A stretch of 55,817 bases of DNA, taken from the NCBI GenBank assembly GCA_900318015.1, contig ONJB01000016.1, forward strand, positions 1 through 55,817, read 5' to 3'. The stretch comes from an uncultured Bacteroidales bacterium (GTDB taxonomy: Bacteria; Bacteroidota; Bacteroidia; Bacteroidales; UBA932). The translations under genes and the position numbers were made by a program. Shown here piece by piece: positions 21,891 to 28,170 of this stretch (position 1 is its first letter; the number at the start of each line of letters is the position of its first letter). Below the pieces are notes generated by a model, which did no database searches, was not told where the DNA came from, and saw only the letters and a program-made list of their open reading frames with translations.

Positions 21891-21935
21891 AAAGAGAAGT
21901 TATTAGAAGTTGGTGTTGTTATTTTTACGGCAAGT

Positions 21936-21967
21936 CTTGCTCGTTTTTGCAAAATTAGCCATCTTTG
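21936..21967 (+). promoter_or_regulatory. Promoter of the PUL regulator gene
   Basis: CTTG at 21936-21939, 20 nt, then CATCTTTG at 21960-21967, one mismatch from the -7 consensus. The regulator's ATG is at 21997. Confidence 0.45.
21950..21957 (-). promoter_or_regulatory. -7 element of the susC operon
   Basis: TAATTTTG read on the minus strand fits TAnnTTTG. No xTTG sits at the usual distance upstream, as expected for an activator-dependent promoter. It lies inside the regulator's own promoter spacer, so the two divergent promoters overlap. Confidence 0.45.
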
Positions 21968-21996
21968 CCGAGGGTCTTGTGGATAAAAAAGATTAT

Positions 21997-24930
21997 ATGG
22001 TAGATAAATTATTCAAGCGGGTGGATTTTTTGTTGGCATTTTTTTCATGCCTGTTCCTGCTTCCCGGAAGACTTTCCGCGGAGGCGGGACCGGAAGACTA
22101 CCTCGTTATCAACCGGCTGACCCGGCAGAGCGGACTGCCGGACCAGGATGTCAACCGAATCTACTTCGACAGCAAGGGGTACGCCTGGATCAGCACCTTC
22201 GGCGGAGGGCTGGTCCGCTACGATGGCGATTCCTTCGTCAAGTTCACGGCGAAGACGGATCCGGAATTCATCAACGACTTTGTGAACCAGTGCAGTGAAG
22301 ATGACTTTGGACGGCTGTGGATTCCCACGGCGGGAGGCATGGACATCCTGGACTTGAAGTCTCTCTCTTTGGTCGAATCGATCCCCGGGATGACCCGGGC
22401 GTGGCGGCGGACGCACTCGCCAGGAGACGTGAACCGGGACGCCAACGGATGTCTGTGGTTCGTTTCGGACGACATCCTGTACAGAGTATCCTTCTCCGGG
22501 ACGGGAGACCGCTGCCAGATCGATTCACTGCACTGCGAGGTCACGAACGCAGGTCTCATGTCCCGGATCGACGATGTCGAAGGAGACGGATCCGCCTGGA
22601 TCACCCTCGGCGGACATTTCTTCAAAGTCAGGCACATCGAGGGCAAGGGGCTGTCCCTGTCGGGAATCCTGCCGGGGGTCGACATCGGAGAAGACAACAA
22701 GGCGACCGCGTATCTGCGCACCGGCAACGAAGTGTGGGTCGGCACGCTGAAGGGGCTGTACCGGATGAATGTCACCTCGGGAAAAGCGGTCTGCTTCCTT
22801 CATTCCGAATCGGACCGTCACTCTCTTCCGAATGACGAGATTACCGGGTTGTGCCTCTCGCCGGAGGGCGAGGTCGTGGTCGGAACGCTGGGAGGCGTCA
22901 GCATCTACCATGCAGGCGAGCAGGCGTTCGACACCTACAGTTCCCACCCCAACGAGTATGGGAACTCCCTGCTCCCGGGAGAAAGGGTGCGGAGCCTCGC
23001 AGTCAGGGACCGGCAGATCTGGGTTGGCCTGGAAGCGGAAGGGCTGGCCATCATCCAGCGGAAACCGCTCCAGATCATCAACCTTTCCCATATCGAGAAC
23101 CAGTCCGCGCCGATTCCGTCTACCCCCGTCCGGGCCATGCTCCTCGACAGCCAGGGCGTCCTGTGGCTGGCAGCCACCGGATACGGCCTGTGCCGGCAGG
23201 TCGGCGACCTCGTGTTCCGGAACTACAACACGAACAATTCCGCCCTCTCCGACAACTTGATCACAGCTTTCTGCGAGGACGGGCAGGGCCGGATCTGGAT
23301 GGGCACCGTCGACGGACACCTGAACTACATCAGCCTGTCCGGGTCCGATGTCATCCACCTCCCCGAGGGGCATGCGTCGGAAGCGGCCAGAAGCATCGAC
23401 GTCGTCTTTGGGATGACCTATGACCCCGTCAATGACTATATCTGGGTTTCCGCCCATAACGGGCTGTATATCTATGATTTAGGGAAGTCTACCTATTCCC
23501 GGTATCCGGGAAAGACGGCTTCGTGCTTCGGAATGTGCCTGACTTCGGACCAGCTGTGGGTGAGCAGCATCGACGGACTGAACGTCATCGACCTGAAGAC
23601 CCTGGAATCCCGGCTGGTCGTCCGGATGCCCCCCTGCATGGCGCTGGCCCCTGACGGAAACGCCCTTTGGGCGGGGACCTACGGGAATGGCCTCTGCCGG
23701 TTGGACAACTTGCAGTCCGACAAGCCGGACATGACGTTCTATTCGGAGCAGGACGGACTGGTGGACAGCCAGATCCAAGGCCTGCTGCTGGACGGACACC
23801 ATCTGTGGATCACGACCGAAAACGGCCTCTCTCTCCTGGACACGGAGGCCGGAGAGATGACCGGCTATGGCCTGCAGGACGGCCTGAAATCCATGGCTTT
23901 CTGCGAAAACAGCGCCTTGAAAGGAGCCGACGGGACCATCTACTTCGGACAGAAAGAAGGTCTGAGCATCCTCCGTTCCAGCCATGTCCTGCAGGAATCC
24001 GGGAACAAACCCACGGTGGTCATTTCCGGGTACTGGTCGAAAGGGGAGTTCCACAACCTCTCGTTCACGGACACCATGAGCAAGGATGAAATGAATCTCG
24101 ATTTCACCTTGAAATTCTCCGACTTGTCCTACTCCCCGGGAGCGGACAACCACTACGAGACCCGGATCCTGCCGCTGAGCAAAGAATGGGCGGTCGTTTT
24201 CGAGAACGACACCCATATCAAATACGGGCACATCCCGGGCGGAAAATACAAGGTCCAGATCCGGGCCGTGGACAAGAACGGGAACGTCCTGTCCCAGGAT
24301 GAAAAGACGCTGGAAGTCATCCCCGTCCTGTACAACCGGTGGTGGTTCCGGCTGCTTGTCCTGCTGCTTGTCGCATACCTCGCATACCTGTTCGTGCGCT
24401 GGTACACGCGCTCCCTCAAGCGGAAAAGAGACCTGTTGCAGCAGGAGGTGGACCGGCAGACGAAAGAACTGAAGGAAAAGAAAGAAGAGCTGGAGCGGAA
24501 GGCGGACGAACTCTCGGAGCAGAATGCCCTCCTGCAAAAGCAGAACGAGATGATCGCCAGCCACAACACGCTGCTGTCCAGCACCTTGTCGAACAAGGAA
24601 ACCGATTTCTCCGCGAAGCTCCTGGACGCCATCCAGAAACTGTACAAGGACCCGGAGCTCGACGTCCATACCCTCGCCGACGCGATGGACATGAACCGCG
24701 CCCTGCTGAACGAGAAGATCCAGAACGCCCTCGGGATGACCACGGCGCAGTTCATCCGGACCTACCGCCTGAATGTGGCAAAGGAGATGATCTGCAACGG
24801 GACCAACAAGGACATGAACATCTCCGAAATCGCCTACGAGGTCGGATTCAACGACCCCAAGTATTTCACCCGCTGCTTCACCAAGGAGTTCGACGCCACG
24901 CCTTCCGACTTATTCAAGGAGCACAATTGA
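21997..24930 (+). CDS. SusR/HTCS-like membrane regulator: two-component propeller, Y_Y_Y, TM, coiled coil, AraC HTH
   Basis: An open frame runs upstream, but the ATG at 21997 gives a signal/anchor (VDFLLAFFSCLFLLPG) and 977 aa. Residues about 30-700 contain repeated propeller blades (SKGYAWISTFGGGLVRYDG, DGQGRIWMGTVDGHLNYI, NDYIWVSAHNGLYIYD, GNALWAGTYGNGLCRL). Next come a Y_Y_Y domain (about 715-775), a transmembrane helix near 784-803 (LLVLLLVAYLAYLFV), a Lys/Glu/Gln-rich coiled coil (about 805-870) and an AraC-type helix-turn-helix (about 877-977; ISEIAYEVGFNDPKYFTRCF). There is no His-kinase, HATPase or receiver domain. It is therefore a one-component relative of hybrid two-component PUL sensors and probably activates the divergent susC operon on sensing a periplasmic oligosaccharide. 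Confidence 0.92.
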   Translation: MVDKLFKRVDFLLAFFSCLFLLPGRLSAEAGPEDYLVINRLTRQSGLPDQDVNRIYFDSKGYAWISTFGGGLVRYDGDSFVKFTAKTDPEFINDFVNQCSEDDFGRLWIPTAGGMDILDLKSLSLVESIPGMTRAWRRTHSPGDVNRDANGCLWFVSDDILYRVSFSGTGDRCQIDSLHCEVTNAGLMSRIDDVEGDGSAWITLGGHFFKVRHIEGKGLSLSGILPGVDIGEDNKATAYLRTGNEVWVGTLKGLYRMNVTSGKAVCFLHSESDRHSLPNDEITGLCLSPEGEVVVGTLGGVSIYHAGEQAFDTYSSHPNEYGNSLLPGERVRSLAVRDRQIWVGLEAEGLAIIQRKPLQIINLSHIENQSAPIPSTPVRAMLLDSQGVLWLAATGYGLCRQVGDLVFRNYNTNNSALSDNLITAFCEDGQGRIWMGTVDGHLNYISLSGSDVIHLPEGHASEAARSIDVVFGMTYDPVNDYIWVSAHNGLYIYDLGKSTYSRYPGKTASCFGMCLTSDQLWVSSIDGLNVIDLKTLESRLVVRMPPCMALAPDGNALWAGTYGNGLCRLDNLQSDKPDMTFYSEQDGLVDSQIQGLLLDGHHLWITTENGLSLLDTEAGEMTGYGLQDGLKSMAFCENSALKGADGTIYFGQKEGLSILRSSHVLQESGNKPTVVISGYWSKGEFHNLSFTDTMSKDEMNLDFTLKFSDLSYSPGADNHYETRILPLSKEWAVVFENDTHIKYGHIPGGKYKVQIRAVDKNGNVLSQDEKTLEVIPVLYNRWWFRLLVLLLVAYLAYLFVRWYTRSLKRKRDLLQQEVDRQTKELKEKKEELERKADELSEQNALLQKQNEMIASHNTLLSSTLSNKETDFSAKLLDAIQKLYKDPELDVHTLADAMDMNRALLNEKIQNALGMTTAQFIRTYRLNVAKEMICNGTNKDMNISEIAYEVGFNDPKYFTRCFTKEFDATPSDLFKEHN

Positions 24931-24987: not shown

Positions 24988-25620
24988 ATGTCTCCTTTGC
25001 TTGATTTGTCCATCCGCGTGCTGGCGGCCGCCTTCGTGGGCGCGGTCATCGGCTACGAGCGGGAAATCCGCGCCAAGGGCGCCGGCATGCGTACGCACGT
25101 GCTCGTCGCGCTCGGCTCCGCGCTGTTCATGATCGTTTCGCAGTTCGGCTTCGAAGGAGCCCCCCGGTTCGATGCGGCCCGTGTCGCGGCCGGCGTGGTG
25201 GGCGGCCTCGGTTTCCTCGGCGGCGGTATCATCATGAAGACCAAGAACCACGTGTCCGGCCTCACCACGGCCGCCGGCCTGTGGGTGACCGGTTCACTGG
25301 GACTGGCCCTGGGCTGCGGGATGTACGCGCTGAGCGGCATCTGCACCGTCCTGGTGCTTGTGTGCCTGGAGGTTCTGAACTCCAGCAGCATCAAGTTTGG
25401 AGACAAGGAAATCAACGCCGTGTTCTCTTCGCCGGACCAGGAAGCCATCAAGGAAGCCCTCACCAGCCTGGGACGCCGCGTCAAGGACTACTCGCTCTCC
25501 AAGCAGGAAAATGGCTACAAGCTCGAAGCCGTCCTGCACGTGCCCAAGAAAGAATATGGGGTGAATCTCATCAACACCCTTTCTTCCATCCCCGGCGTGC
25601 AGCTGGAGAGTTTCGACTGA
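24988..25620 (+). CDS. MgtC/SapB family membrane protein
   Basis: The 210-residue protein shows the MgtC/SapB core: LLDLSIRVLAAAFVGAVIGYERE, GAGMRTHVLVALGSALFMIVS, ARVAAGVVGGLGFLGGGIIMK, VSGLTTAAGLWVTGSLGLALG, then a last membrane segment. A C-terminal soluble ACT-like domain (about 135-210, DQEAIKEALTSLGRRVKDY...YGVNLINTLSSIPGVQLES) follows. About five transmembrane helices are predicted. In Salmonella, MgtC affects ATP synthase and phosphate uptake; in other bacteria the role is less clear. The gene has its own promoter and converges on the Na/Pi cotransporter-fusion gene with only 4 nt between stops. That proximity suggests a possible link to phosphate or magnesium homeostasis. Confidence 0.9.
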   Translation: MSPLLDLSIRVLAAAFVGAVIGYEREIRAKGAGMRTHVLVALGSALFMIVSQFGFEGAPRFDAARVAAGVVGGLGFLGGGIIMKTKNHVSGLTTAAGLWVTGSLGLALGCGMYALSGICTVLVLVCLEVLNSSSIKFGDKEINAVFSSPDQEAIKEALTSLGRRVKDYSLSKQENGYKLEAVLHVPKKEYGVNLINTLSSIPGVQLESFD

Positions 25621-25624
25621 TTTC

Positions 25625-27586
25625 CTATTCCTGGAACGAATACCCGAAACCGGGACGGGTCACGATGCAGTCCGCGTAAGGGCCGATCTTCTTGCGGATG
25701 CGGGTGATGTTCACGTCCACGGTGCGGGCCGTCACGATCACGTCGTCGGGCCAGACCGCGGAGAGCAGCTCCTCGCGGGAGAACACTTTCCCCCGGTTTT
25801 CCAGGAACAGCTTTAAGAGCTCGTACTCGGTCTTGGTAAAGGAAACGACCGTTCCGTCCACGCTGATCTCCTTCGCGTCGGTGTCCATCTGGATGCCGCG
25901 GAAGCGGATGCCGTTGCGGATGGCGCCCAGGCGGGCCTCCACGACATTGATGATGTAGTCGCCGGTCTTCTCGCATTCGCTGAAGAGGTCCACGAACACG
26001 GTGCCCTTATCGTAATCGTACTTGCGGGCATCCAGGTTCTCGATGTTCTGCCGCTTGAGCGCATTGCGGCAGGCGTTGATCTGGCGTTCCAGATCCTCGG
26101 AAACGCCGATTCCGAAATCTTCCTTGTGCCCGGAAAGGACGGTGTTCATCCGGACGAGCGCCTCTTCCACGAGCGCGAACATGCGCTGGATGCCTTCGTC
26201 CATTTCCGGTGTGAAAACGATCTTGGTCGCCCGCTTGCGGCGCAGGATCCGGGCCAGGTTGAAGCAGCTGTCGCCCACGGACTCCAACTCGCCGATCTGG
26301 CGGAGCATCGCGCGGATCTTTTCCTTGGTGTCGTCGGACAGATGGGCCTCCCCGACGGCGCTCAGGTACCGGCCGATCTCATTCTCCATCCGGTCACTGC
26401 CCTCCTCTCCCTTGCGGATGCGCTCGAAGAGCCTGGCAAACGCCTGCTCGTCCTCCATCGCATACATTTCTTTCACCTGCTCGAACATCCGCTGCGTATT
26501 TTCTCCGAATACCGCGATCTCCTTCTGCGCCTGCAGGACCGAGATTTCCGGGGTGTTCATGATACCGACCCGGATGTACTGCAGGCGGAATTCGTCCTCG
26601 TCTTCCGTCTTCTTGGGCTTGATCAGGAAGCACACCAGTTTCTCGATCTGCGGGATGAACCAGATCAGGATGGCCGTGTTGATCACGTTGAAACACGTGT
26701 GGAATGTGGCCAGGGCAAAGGAAAGCTGGGTGGGACTCTGCTCTGCGGCGTTGGGGTCCAGCCCCACGATGCCGCACACCATCCGCACGAACGGGAAGAA
26801 GAGAATCAGCACCCAGATGACGCCGAACACGTTGAATACCAGGTGCGCCATGGCGGTTCGCCGGGCTTGCGTATTCGCGCTCAGCGCAGCCAGGTTCGCC
26901 GTGACCGTCGTGCCGATGTTCTCGCCCATCACCAGGGCGATGCCCTGGAAGATGGAAATCGCCCCGGTCGCGCAGAGGACCATCGTGATAGCCATGAGTG
27001 CCGCCGAGCTCTGCACCAGCGCAGTCAGGATCGTGCCGATCAAAAGGAAAAGCAGGATCGTGCCGTAATTGGTCTTGAAACTCGAGAAGAAGGCGACCAC
27101 CTCCGGCTTGCTCGCGAGATCCATTTCCACACCCGTCTGCTTGAGCATCCCGAGGGCGAACAGCAGGAAGGAAAGACCGAAGAGGAAATCGCCGAAATAG
27201 CGGTGCTTGCCGATCTGGATCAGGATGATGCCGATAAGGAAGGCCGGCCACACGACATTGACGACGTTGAAGGAGAAGCCGGCGGACATGATCCACGCGC
27301 TCATCGTCGTGCCGATGTTGGCCCCCATGATAATCGAGATGGCTTGAGCGAGGGTAAGCAGGGCCGCATTCACGAAAGAGACCGTCATGACGGTGGTCGC
27401 GGCGGAAGATTGGACCGCTACGGTCACCAGGGCGCCGGTCGCCACGCCGGTGAACCGGTTCGTGGTCATCGCGCCCAGCAAGTGACGCAGCTGCGGGCCC
27501 GCCATCTTCTGGAGGGCCTCGCTCATCATCTTCATTCCGAATATCAGGAGGGCGATCGAGCCCAGGAGCTTCAAGGCAATCAGCAT
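25625..27586 (-). CDS. Na+/phosphate cotransporter fused to PhoU and an OmpR/PhoB-type winged-helix DNA-binding domain
   Basis: I place the start at the ATG at 27586 (653 aa); the TTG at 27607 lies inside the -7 element. Residues 1-325 form the Na_Pi_cotrans transporter with both QSS signatures (VQSSAATTVM at about 58, LVQSSAALMA at about 191), ANIGTT and ENIGTT. Residues about 355-557 form a PhoU-like helical domain with two metal-site motifs, ELESVGDSCFN and ECEKTGDYIINV. Such transporter-PhoU fusions are known. Unusually, residues about 560-653 are a complete OmpR/PhoB winged helix: ISVDGTVVSFTKTEYELLKL, FSREELLSAVWP, recognition helix RTVDVNITRIRKKI, and the wing RPGFGYSF. No receiver domain is present. 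The protein could be a transporter that regulates transcription directly from the membrane. No frameshift is visible at the junction. Confidence 0.9.
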   Translation of the reverse strand: MLIALKLLGSIALLIFGMKMMSEALQKMAGPQLRHLLGAMTTNRFTGVATGALVTVAVQSSAATTVMTVSFVNAALLTLAQAISIIMGANIGTTMSAWIMSAGFSFNVVNVVWPAFLIGIILIQIGKHRYFGDFLFGLSFLLFALGMLKQTGVEMDLASKPEVVAFFSSFKTNYGTILLFLLIGTILTALVQSSAALMAITMVLCATGAISIFQGIALVMGENIGTTVTANLAALSANTQARRTAMAHLVFNVFGVIWVLILFFPFVRMVCGIVGLDPNAAEQSPTQLSFALATFHTCFNVINTAILIWFIPQIEKLVCFLIKPKKTEDEDEFRLQYIRVGIMNTPEISVLQAQKEIAVFGENTQRMFEQVKEMYAMEDEQAFARLFERIRKGEEGSDRMENEIGRYLSAVGEAHLSDDTKEKIRAMLRQIGELESVGDSCFNLARILRRKRATKIVFTPEMDEGIQRMFALVEEALVRMNTVLSGHKEDFGIGVSEDLERQINACRNALKRQNIENLDARKYDYDKGTVFVDLFSECEKTGDYIINVVEARLGAIRNGIRFRGIQMDTDAKEISVDGTVVSFTKTEYELLKLFLENRGKVFSREELLSAVWPDDVIVTARTVDVNITRIRKKIGPYADCIVTRPGFGYSFQE

Positions 27587-27604: not shown

Positions 27605-27636
27605 CAAAGATACACCCGGAGGCCGTTTCCCTCAAG
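27605..27636 (-). promoter_or_regulatory. Promoter of the transporter-PhoU-winged-helix gene
   Basis: On the minus strand: CTTG at 27636-27633, exactly 20 nt, then a perfect TATCTTTG at 27612-27605. The ATG is 18 nt beyond the -7 box. This decides the start at 27586. Confidence 0.65.
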
Positions 27637-27648
27637 GGAAAAAAACAA

Positions 27649-27687
27649 TTGTAACAGAATTTTAATGCCCTTTTCCGGGTTTGTAAC
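27649..27687. promoter_or_regulatory. Candidate operator: 11-bp-spaced heptamers with TTGTAAC copies
   Basis: TTGTAAC at 27649-27655, TTTTAAT at 27660-27666, TTTTCCG at 27671-27677 and TTGTAAC at 27681-27687 are spaced about 11, 11 and 10 bp. OmpR/PhoB proteins typically bind 7-bp direct repeats with 4-bp spacers. The array lies just upstream of the -33 box of the winged-helix fusion gene and in front of the divergent PepSY-like gene. The middle two units match only weakly, so this is a suggestion. Confidence 0.35.
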
Positions 27688-27732: not shown

Positions 27733-28170
27733 ATGAAAAAGATGCTTCTCCTCGCCCTTGCTTCCCTTCTTTTGCTGCTGACCGGATGCGCCTTCGGCCT
27801 GAAACAGCCGCCGAAAACGATCCGTCAGGCCTTCGACTCGCAGTTCCCCGGCGCCAGCCATGTGGAATGGGAAAGAGTGATGTCCACCTACAAGGCGGAG
27901 TTCTATCACGACGGTCACGAGAAAGAGGCCCAGTTCGACAAGGACGGCACCTGGCGGCGCACGAAGACGGAACTCTCCTTCCTCGACATCCCCGCCCCGG
28001 TCATGAAGGCCGCACAGGAATACTGTGACTGGGAAATCGACGACATCCTCCTGTTCGAACAGGCGGACGGGGTCCCGGCCTACTACCAGATCGAATACGA
28101 CCGGGAGCATTCGGACCGCGAGAAGCAGCTCCTCCTGTTTCCCGACGGATCGGTCTTTACGCGCCTTTAG
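27733..28170 (+). CDS. PepSY-like (BLIP-like) lipoprotein
   Basis: The 145-residue protein has a lipoprotein signal (LLLALASLLLLLTGC). The rest fits the periplasmic 'PepSY-like, beta-lactamase-inhibitor-like' family of Bacteroidota: TIRQAFDSQFPGASHVEWERV, YKAEFYHDGHEKEAQFDKDGTW, LPxxV-like LDIPAPVMKAAQEYCDWEIDDI, YYQIEYDRE, and a closing FPDGSVFTRL. These two-repeat alpha/beta proteins are usually about this length; their function is unknown, though inhibitor or metal-response roles have been suggested. A TATCTTGC -7-like box lies at 27709-27716. The gene is divergent from the transporter-winged-helix fusion and shares its upstream region, so it is a candidate target of that regulator. Its stop overlaps the convergent TlpA-like gene. 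Confidence 0.75.
   Translation: MKKMLLLALASLLLLLTGCAFGLKQPPKTIRQAFDSQFPGASHVEWERVMSTYKAEFYHDGHEKEAQFDKDGTWRRTKTELSFLDIPAPVMKAAQEYCDWEIDDILLFEQADGVPAYYQIEYDREHSDREKQLLLFPDGSVFTRL

Follow-up and report, generated by a model that had tools for sequence, protein, structure and literature searches.

It has long been asked how the Pst/PhoU system tells PhoR about phosphate, and the locus described here raises the question in a compact form: can a phosphate carrier that bears PhoU and a PhoB-type DNA-binding domain on the same polypeptide control its own gene without a kinase? The gene lies in a window of 55,817 nucleotides, which is the whole of the stretch analysed here, from an uncultured Bacteroidales bacterium (GCA_900318015.1, contig ONJB01000016.1). 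We refer to the genome of the window as G000, and other G and L numbers denote the compared genomes and loci. We consider it reasonably probable that the fused protein is a single-protein phosphate homeostat, combining the carrier, a PhoU sensor and the carrier's own transcription factor. This reading is supported at the sequence level by the fusion itself, by the constraint on its domains, by the finding of neither PhoBR nor Pst in G000, by a PHO-box-like repeat in the promoter, by the pairing of this box with the recognition helix and by the location of the box mainly at the fused gene.

A first-pass annotation of this DNA had proposed that one uninterrupted frame encodes a Na_Pi_cotrans domain, PhoU and a full OmpR/PhoB winged helix (wHTH). 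The single frame is confirmed (Table 1), and its PhoU bundle is full. As in NptA-type proteins, two Na_Pi_cotrans repeats with QSS motifs are present, and a PhoU domain with acidic sites lies C-terminal of the transporter part; the acidic residues are invariant. The SLC34 chains 9z60 and 9z64 are distant sequence matches to the Na_Pi_cotrans region. The OmpR/PhoB winged-helix effector is present as it is in PhoB, and a Pfam search of the fused protein gave no Response_reg match that would correspond to an N-terminal receiver with its phospho-acceptor Asp. The DNA-binding domain and the transmembrane segments, the latter assigned by homology and from the model, are on one chain. In the predicted structure the last PhoU helix ends at residue 553 and the first wHTH strand runs from residue 559, leaving a linker of about five residues; the model does not fix the orientation of the domains (pTM 0.47).

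Table 1. Features of the fused gene and its upstream region, in positions of the window.
Feature	Position	Strand	Remarks
Fused gene, Na/Pi cotransporter - PhoU - PhoB-type wHTH	25625..27586	minus	653 aa; stop included
Na_Pi_cotrans region, residues 13-318	26633..27550	minus	two repeat halves with QSS motifs; Pfam/NCBIfam
PhoU helical bundle, residues 345-555	25922..26554	minus	acidic pairs kept
PhoB-type winged helix, residues 558-653	25628..25915	minus	profile matches, predicted structure, dN/dS
Recognition helix alpha3, residues 620-633	25688..25729	minus	includes TVDVNITRIRKK; secondary structure of model
-7 element TATCTTTG (TAnnTTTG)	27605..27612	minus	18 nt past TTGAG; read from sequence, conserved
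-33-like element CTTGAG	27631..27636	minus	9 nt downstream of box; read from sequence, conserved
PHO-box-like direct repeat ATTAAAATTCTGTTACAATTG	27646..27666	minus	half-sites TTAAAA / TTACAA, 11-bp period
Divergent PepSY_like lipoprotein gene	27733..28170	plus	start 146 nt from fused gene's start

The annotation had named a frameshift or misassembly near the junction as the outcome that would undo its proposal, and orthologues with the same junction as the outcome that would sustain it. Misassembly and frameshift are ruled out by an identical junction in independent assemblies: among 400 genomes from the genus, at least 56 encode the fused protein through to the end of the wHTH (matches listed down to about E 1e-230, leaving out the partial matches in G320 and G024 and keeping that in G116, which begins at residue 84). 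Chance extension of the frame is ruled out by dN/dS and the predicted fold. The orthologous loci extracted from the genus comprised 61 fused and 44 unfused ones, two of the fused being in G000. In a second collection the wHTH end was reached in 79 of 80 loci (the exception is L270); these are the best 80 of 314 candidates, chosen as top matches to the fused query, so that the figure is no rate, and some of the loci start inside the gene. The samples behind many of them came from goat, sheep, yak, water buffalo, deer, cattle or horse, and their taxon labels are mostly Bacteroidales, with some Bacteroidia, Bacteroidaceae or Prevotellaceae and one Fibrobacter (L208). At the order level (393 genomes), PhoU and the wHTH were matched jointly only in G784 besides G000, and at the phylum level (395 genomes, threshold 1e-38) there was no such match except G000 itself. 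Judged from these searches, the fusion is rare outside the genus.

The annotation's suggestion that this system is kinase-free is supported at the level of the genome, which is 3.2 Mb in size and 92.5% complete. Within that completeness, G000 yielded no PhoB over the family cut-off, no PstB and no close PhoR (E<1e-50; the best match to the G015 kinase as query has E 1e-17), and its only two Trans_reg_C domains (E<=0.01) belong to the fused protein of the window and to a paralogue that is likewise fused. Close matches to the G015 kinase (E<1e-50) were found in 6 of 53 fused genomes, exactly those six with free PhoB, in all 17 PhoB-bearing controls and in none of 9 unfused genomes without PhoB; PstB exceeded its cut-off in 3 of 79 genomes tested and in none of the 53 fused ones. 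That the fusion generally replaces PhoBR was also considered and rejected: of the genomes that have a close orthologue, 6/56 fused versus 20/106 unfused ones contain free PhoB, a difference that is not significant (p=0.26), and the stronger all-genus contrast (6/56 versus 118/344, p 0.0003) is confounded by relatedness.

The gene order in unfused genomes suggests an origin for the fusion. In G015 the ATG of a PhoB gene lies 18 nt past the NaPi-PhoU stop codon and is followed by a histidine kinase gene; judged by coordinates, phoB also directly follows NaPi-PhoU in G083, G088 and G274. Loss of the receiver-encoding stretch from such an arrangement would give the fusion, and the fused gene probably arose in this way, from a NaPi-PhoU gene directly upstream of phoB. 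On the core tree the fused state has to change 13 times, with 7 or more of these changes on starred branches. Since the linker RLGAxRNGIRxxG is common to group A fused proteins, with few exceptions, one gain followed by several losses would be the simple view for this group. The unfused L144, which sits among fused relatives in the tree, ends in GGLLYQDRV. This stretch looks like the wHTH region of the window translated in a different frame, as would fit a deletion that took out the wHTH. As to one or several origins of the fusion, groups A (73), B (23) and C (5) came out apart in a quick wHTH tree, where free PhoBs lay in between, and their linkers differ. In AU tests, trees uniting all fused wHTHs or groups A and B were better by 34 and 40 log units, respectively (p 0.84 in each case), and the quick tree is therefore not the best one.

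Upstream of the fused gene, CTTGAG and TAnnTTTG are placed as the -33 and -7 elements, which we take them to be by the Bacteroidota promoter consensus. The E. coli PHO box has a 7+4 direct-repeat layout, and the candidate target promoter carries a direct repeat of the PHO-box type. The same layout is stated for M. tuberculosis PhoP (PMC4832192). The box averages 1.60 bits per position against 0.19 in the preceding 40 nt (27 non-redundant of 44 loci), a value that is partly circular and inflated, as the loci were anchored on the box. Lying just upstream of the putative -33 element, the box is, by its position, in the place of an activator. This self-directed candidate site, which the annotation had not mentioned, is our strongest evidence on function.

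We infer physical DNA binding, the sign of activation, dependence on Pi and a relay through PhoU. The membrane domain is predicted to import Na+/Pi; PhoU, held on a very short linker to the wHTH, would read the transport state or cytoplasmic Pi; and the PhoB-derived wHTH would bind the direct repeat upstream of its own -33 and thereby control how strongly the fused gene is transcribed. Most likely it would act as an activator under Pi scarcity and leave the DNA once PhoU adopts its Pi-replete state. On sequence grounds the fused protein probably binds and controls its own gene, and phosphate control would be exerted through PhoU. A path from transport state or Pi to the wHTH by way of PhoU is plausible by analogy with S. 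aureus NptA, where removal of the PhoU domain raises expression of the PhoPR-controlled nptA in some media, with PhoPR present (PMC13170248). It is unlikely, in our estimate, that the wHTH binds the box as a Pi-independent autoregulator and that PhoU only gates transport, sending no signal to the wHTH. Such behaviour would fit PhoB, whose effector domain can bind and activate once freed of its receiver. It would also fit a suggested role of the NptA PhoU in regulating importer activity (PMC13170248), but the very short PhoU-wHTH linker and the invariant acidic residues of PhoU favour coupling of the two domains, without proving it.

Box and recognition helix go together. A box matrix trained on 16 loci, which hold 8 distinct sites, was run over the upstream sequence (250 nt at most) of 96 fused loci. 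A box (p<0.02 versus shuffles) was detected in 47/57 loci with a PhoB-like recognition helix and in 0/39 with a diverged one, the helix pattern having been fixed after the first box scan had been seen. With the training loci removed, the counts were 32/42 and 0/39, and a matrix-free repeat pattern gave 28/42 and 0/39. Among the diverged we counted L275, whose helix DVHIT is one residue off the PhoB-like pattern and which has no box. Six loci with a canonical helix (L061, L083, L256, L272-L274) gave no box signal even at p<0.05, and four more reached only p 0.03-0.045. The scans left out loci with less than 100 nt (one scan) or 60 nt (the other) upstream, such as L038, L081 and L013, and shuffle p-values differ slightly between the two. 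Shared ancestry weakens the raw count: the tree has few independent changes, and tree-based pairs of helix and box agree in 2-6 cases and disagree in none (sign-test p 0.03-0.5). Unfused orthologues (n=43) were scanned as well: a signal was present in 4/9 from genomes that have free PhoB but lack a fused copy (one of the four, L153, scoring low), in 0/27 from genomes without PhoB and in 0/7 from genomes that also hold a fused copy, indicating that the box marks the fused gene and not its unfused paralogue.

These scans, together with substitution rates, bear on the idea that the wHTH is a decaying, tolerated leftover of the fusion and the box a vestige of regulation by free PhoB in an ancestor, which we regard as improbable. 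The wHTH is missing or diverged in many lineages, as the 44 unfused orthologues, the deletion-like end of L144 and the 39 of 96 scanned loci with diverged recognition helices attest, and this would fit decay. Yet pooled dN/dS over 26 pairs is 0.078 for the membrane part, 0.155 for PhoU, 0.19 for the wHTH and 0.206 for the recognition helix (exceeding 1 for the helix in two single pairs, L106/L113 and L089/L114), and the wHTH of the window, paired with that of its relative L061, gives 0.058. By this measure the wHTH is under purifying selection. Moreover, the box has been kept alongside an intact fused helix in genomes that yielded no PhoB, whereas the 27 unfused orthologues in genomes without PhoB are signal-free.

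We searched 45 chosen genomes (24 fused, 11 unfused without PhoB and 10 with free PhoB and no fusion) with a pattern that covers window-type boxes only and would miss more degenerate targets. Of the 16 sites with at most two mismatches, 14 fall in the promoter of the fused gene itself; there, this pattern finds a match in 15 of the 24 fused genomes and none in the other 9. Sites with three mismatches lie away from the fused gene in 12 of 13 cases, and a reversed control pattern has 15 matches at up to three mismatches, which is chance level. G000 holds two sites at up to three mismatches, its own fused promoter and C28:17928-17946 (L306). The latter has one mismatch and lies before a tRNA_SAD-domain gene, about 13 nt past a TACTTTTG element; if real, it would be at a road-block position. 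We dropped it as a target, the site not being found in the close relatives G418, G172 and G087. The remaining site with at most two mismatches is a second perfect box in G027 (C55:25619-25637, L078), with a TTGAG after it. This box sits at the end of a permease-like frame, 2.9 kb from the fused gene on its upstream side, and looks like a duplicated promoter fragment. Some other membrane regulators work by cleavage, and proteolysis might likewise free PhoU-wHTH as a soluble factor for many genes, but we hold this to be very improbable here, given that good box matches are mainly at the fused gene's own promoter and that the modelled linker offers just about five residues.

Some lineages keep diverged helices under constraint, for example in the pairs L068/L074 and L073/L075. 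One such copy is the paralogue in G000 (C19:6337-8292, L002/L068), which is 81% identical to the window protein, has an altered recognition helix (RVVDTYINRLRRKI) and gives no box signal; 15 nt ahead of its ATG is a TAA that closes another open frame, and the paralogue may be co-transcribed with an upstream gene. The clade B members with diverged helices (L097, L100-L102, L104, L105, L107 and L110) have in common an upstream block, GTTGATAAA, near the box position of other clade B members and repeated in L110, a possible co-evolved site. A wHTH kept for protein-protein contact (for example with RNA polymerase or in oligomerisation) in place of DNA binding would account for constraint on diverged helices, but the co-occurrence of helix and box and the common block of clade B make this the least credible account, applicable if at all to the diverged lineages only. 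Helix and site may instead have co-evolved to new specificities in the changed-helix lineages, including two paralogues of differing specificity in one genome.

The surroundings of the gene offer further observations. A divergent gene similar to the PepSY_like one (Table 1) lies beside the fused gene in a cluster of 6 fused loci, and the two genes may share a control region. On the other side, an MgtC-family gene (24988-25620, plus strand) is convergent with the fused gene, their stops 4 nt apart, and is also present in L059 and L060. Beyond it, the product of 21910-24930 (plus strand) has Pfam matches to Reg_prop, Y_Y_Y and an AraC-type HTH and a hydrophobic stretch, with no kinase or receiver match; it is another kinase-free regulator, probably membrane-bound.

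Taken to its full extent, the homeostat would be a complete feedback loop of carrier, sensor and own transcription factor in one polypeptide, with one promoter and essentially one target, replacing PhoR-PhoB-Pst; we give this extended form an even chance. A nascent membrane protein may also draw its own locus to the membrane and so keep tether and target together. If true, the transporter would be the transcription factor for its own gene, nutrient homeostasis would take a minimal form in these bacteria from the gut of grazing animals, and one fused protein may do alone what a separate kinase and regulator usually do in bacteria. With PhoU wired directly to a PhoB DNA-binding domain and no kinase between them, the output of PhoU could be followed simply, by assaying DNA binding or a reporter.

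Membrane-spanning regulators that carry DNA-binding domains are an established type (PMC10269533), and proteins that join a transporter to PhoU are common (PMC13170248). In the open-access literature we found no description of a secondary transporter joined through PhoU to a DNA-binding domain, or of one that targets the gene encoding it; the annotation likewise knew of no described system with such a layout. One of the closest relatives in layout is S. aureus NptA, which likewise has Na_Pi_cotrans and PhoU on one chain, with PhoU affecting Pi regulation, but which acts beside a separate PhoPR, the passages of that source on NptA mentioning no DNA-binding domain (PMC13170248). Here, in contrast, the transporter itself bears the DNA-binding domain, and G000 yielded no PhoBR; where the S. 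aureus transporter-PhoU talks to a two-component system, that system appears to have been cut out. PhoB shares with the fused protein the wHTH fold, the PhoB-like recognition helix and a PHO-box-like 7+4 repeat upstream of the promoter, but the fused protein is without a receiver domain and carries its wHTH on a membrane transporter. ToxR/CadC-type regulators also combine a DNA-binding domain with a membrane segment in one-component signalling (PMC10269533, PMC5430869), whereas here the wHTH is C-terminal on a polytopic secondary transporter, with a PhoU sensor between, and the apparent target is its own gene. CbrA is likewise a transporter fusion, an SLC5-type secondary transporter joined to a sensor kinase module; as described, its output is a kinase working with CbrB (PMC7096432), while the output of the fused protein would be DNA binding itself. 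The N. gonorrhoeae Rsp is a membrane-bound chimera of the PilS receptor and the PilR DNA-binding domain that short-circuits a two-component pair (PMC10269533); unlike the fused protein, it is described without a transporter or a phosphate sensor domain. What is striking here, as read from the sequence, is a putative transmembrane one-component regulator built on a transporter and PhoU and aimed at its own gene.
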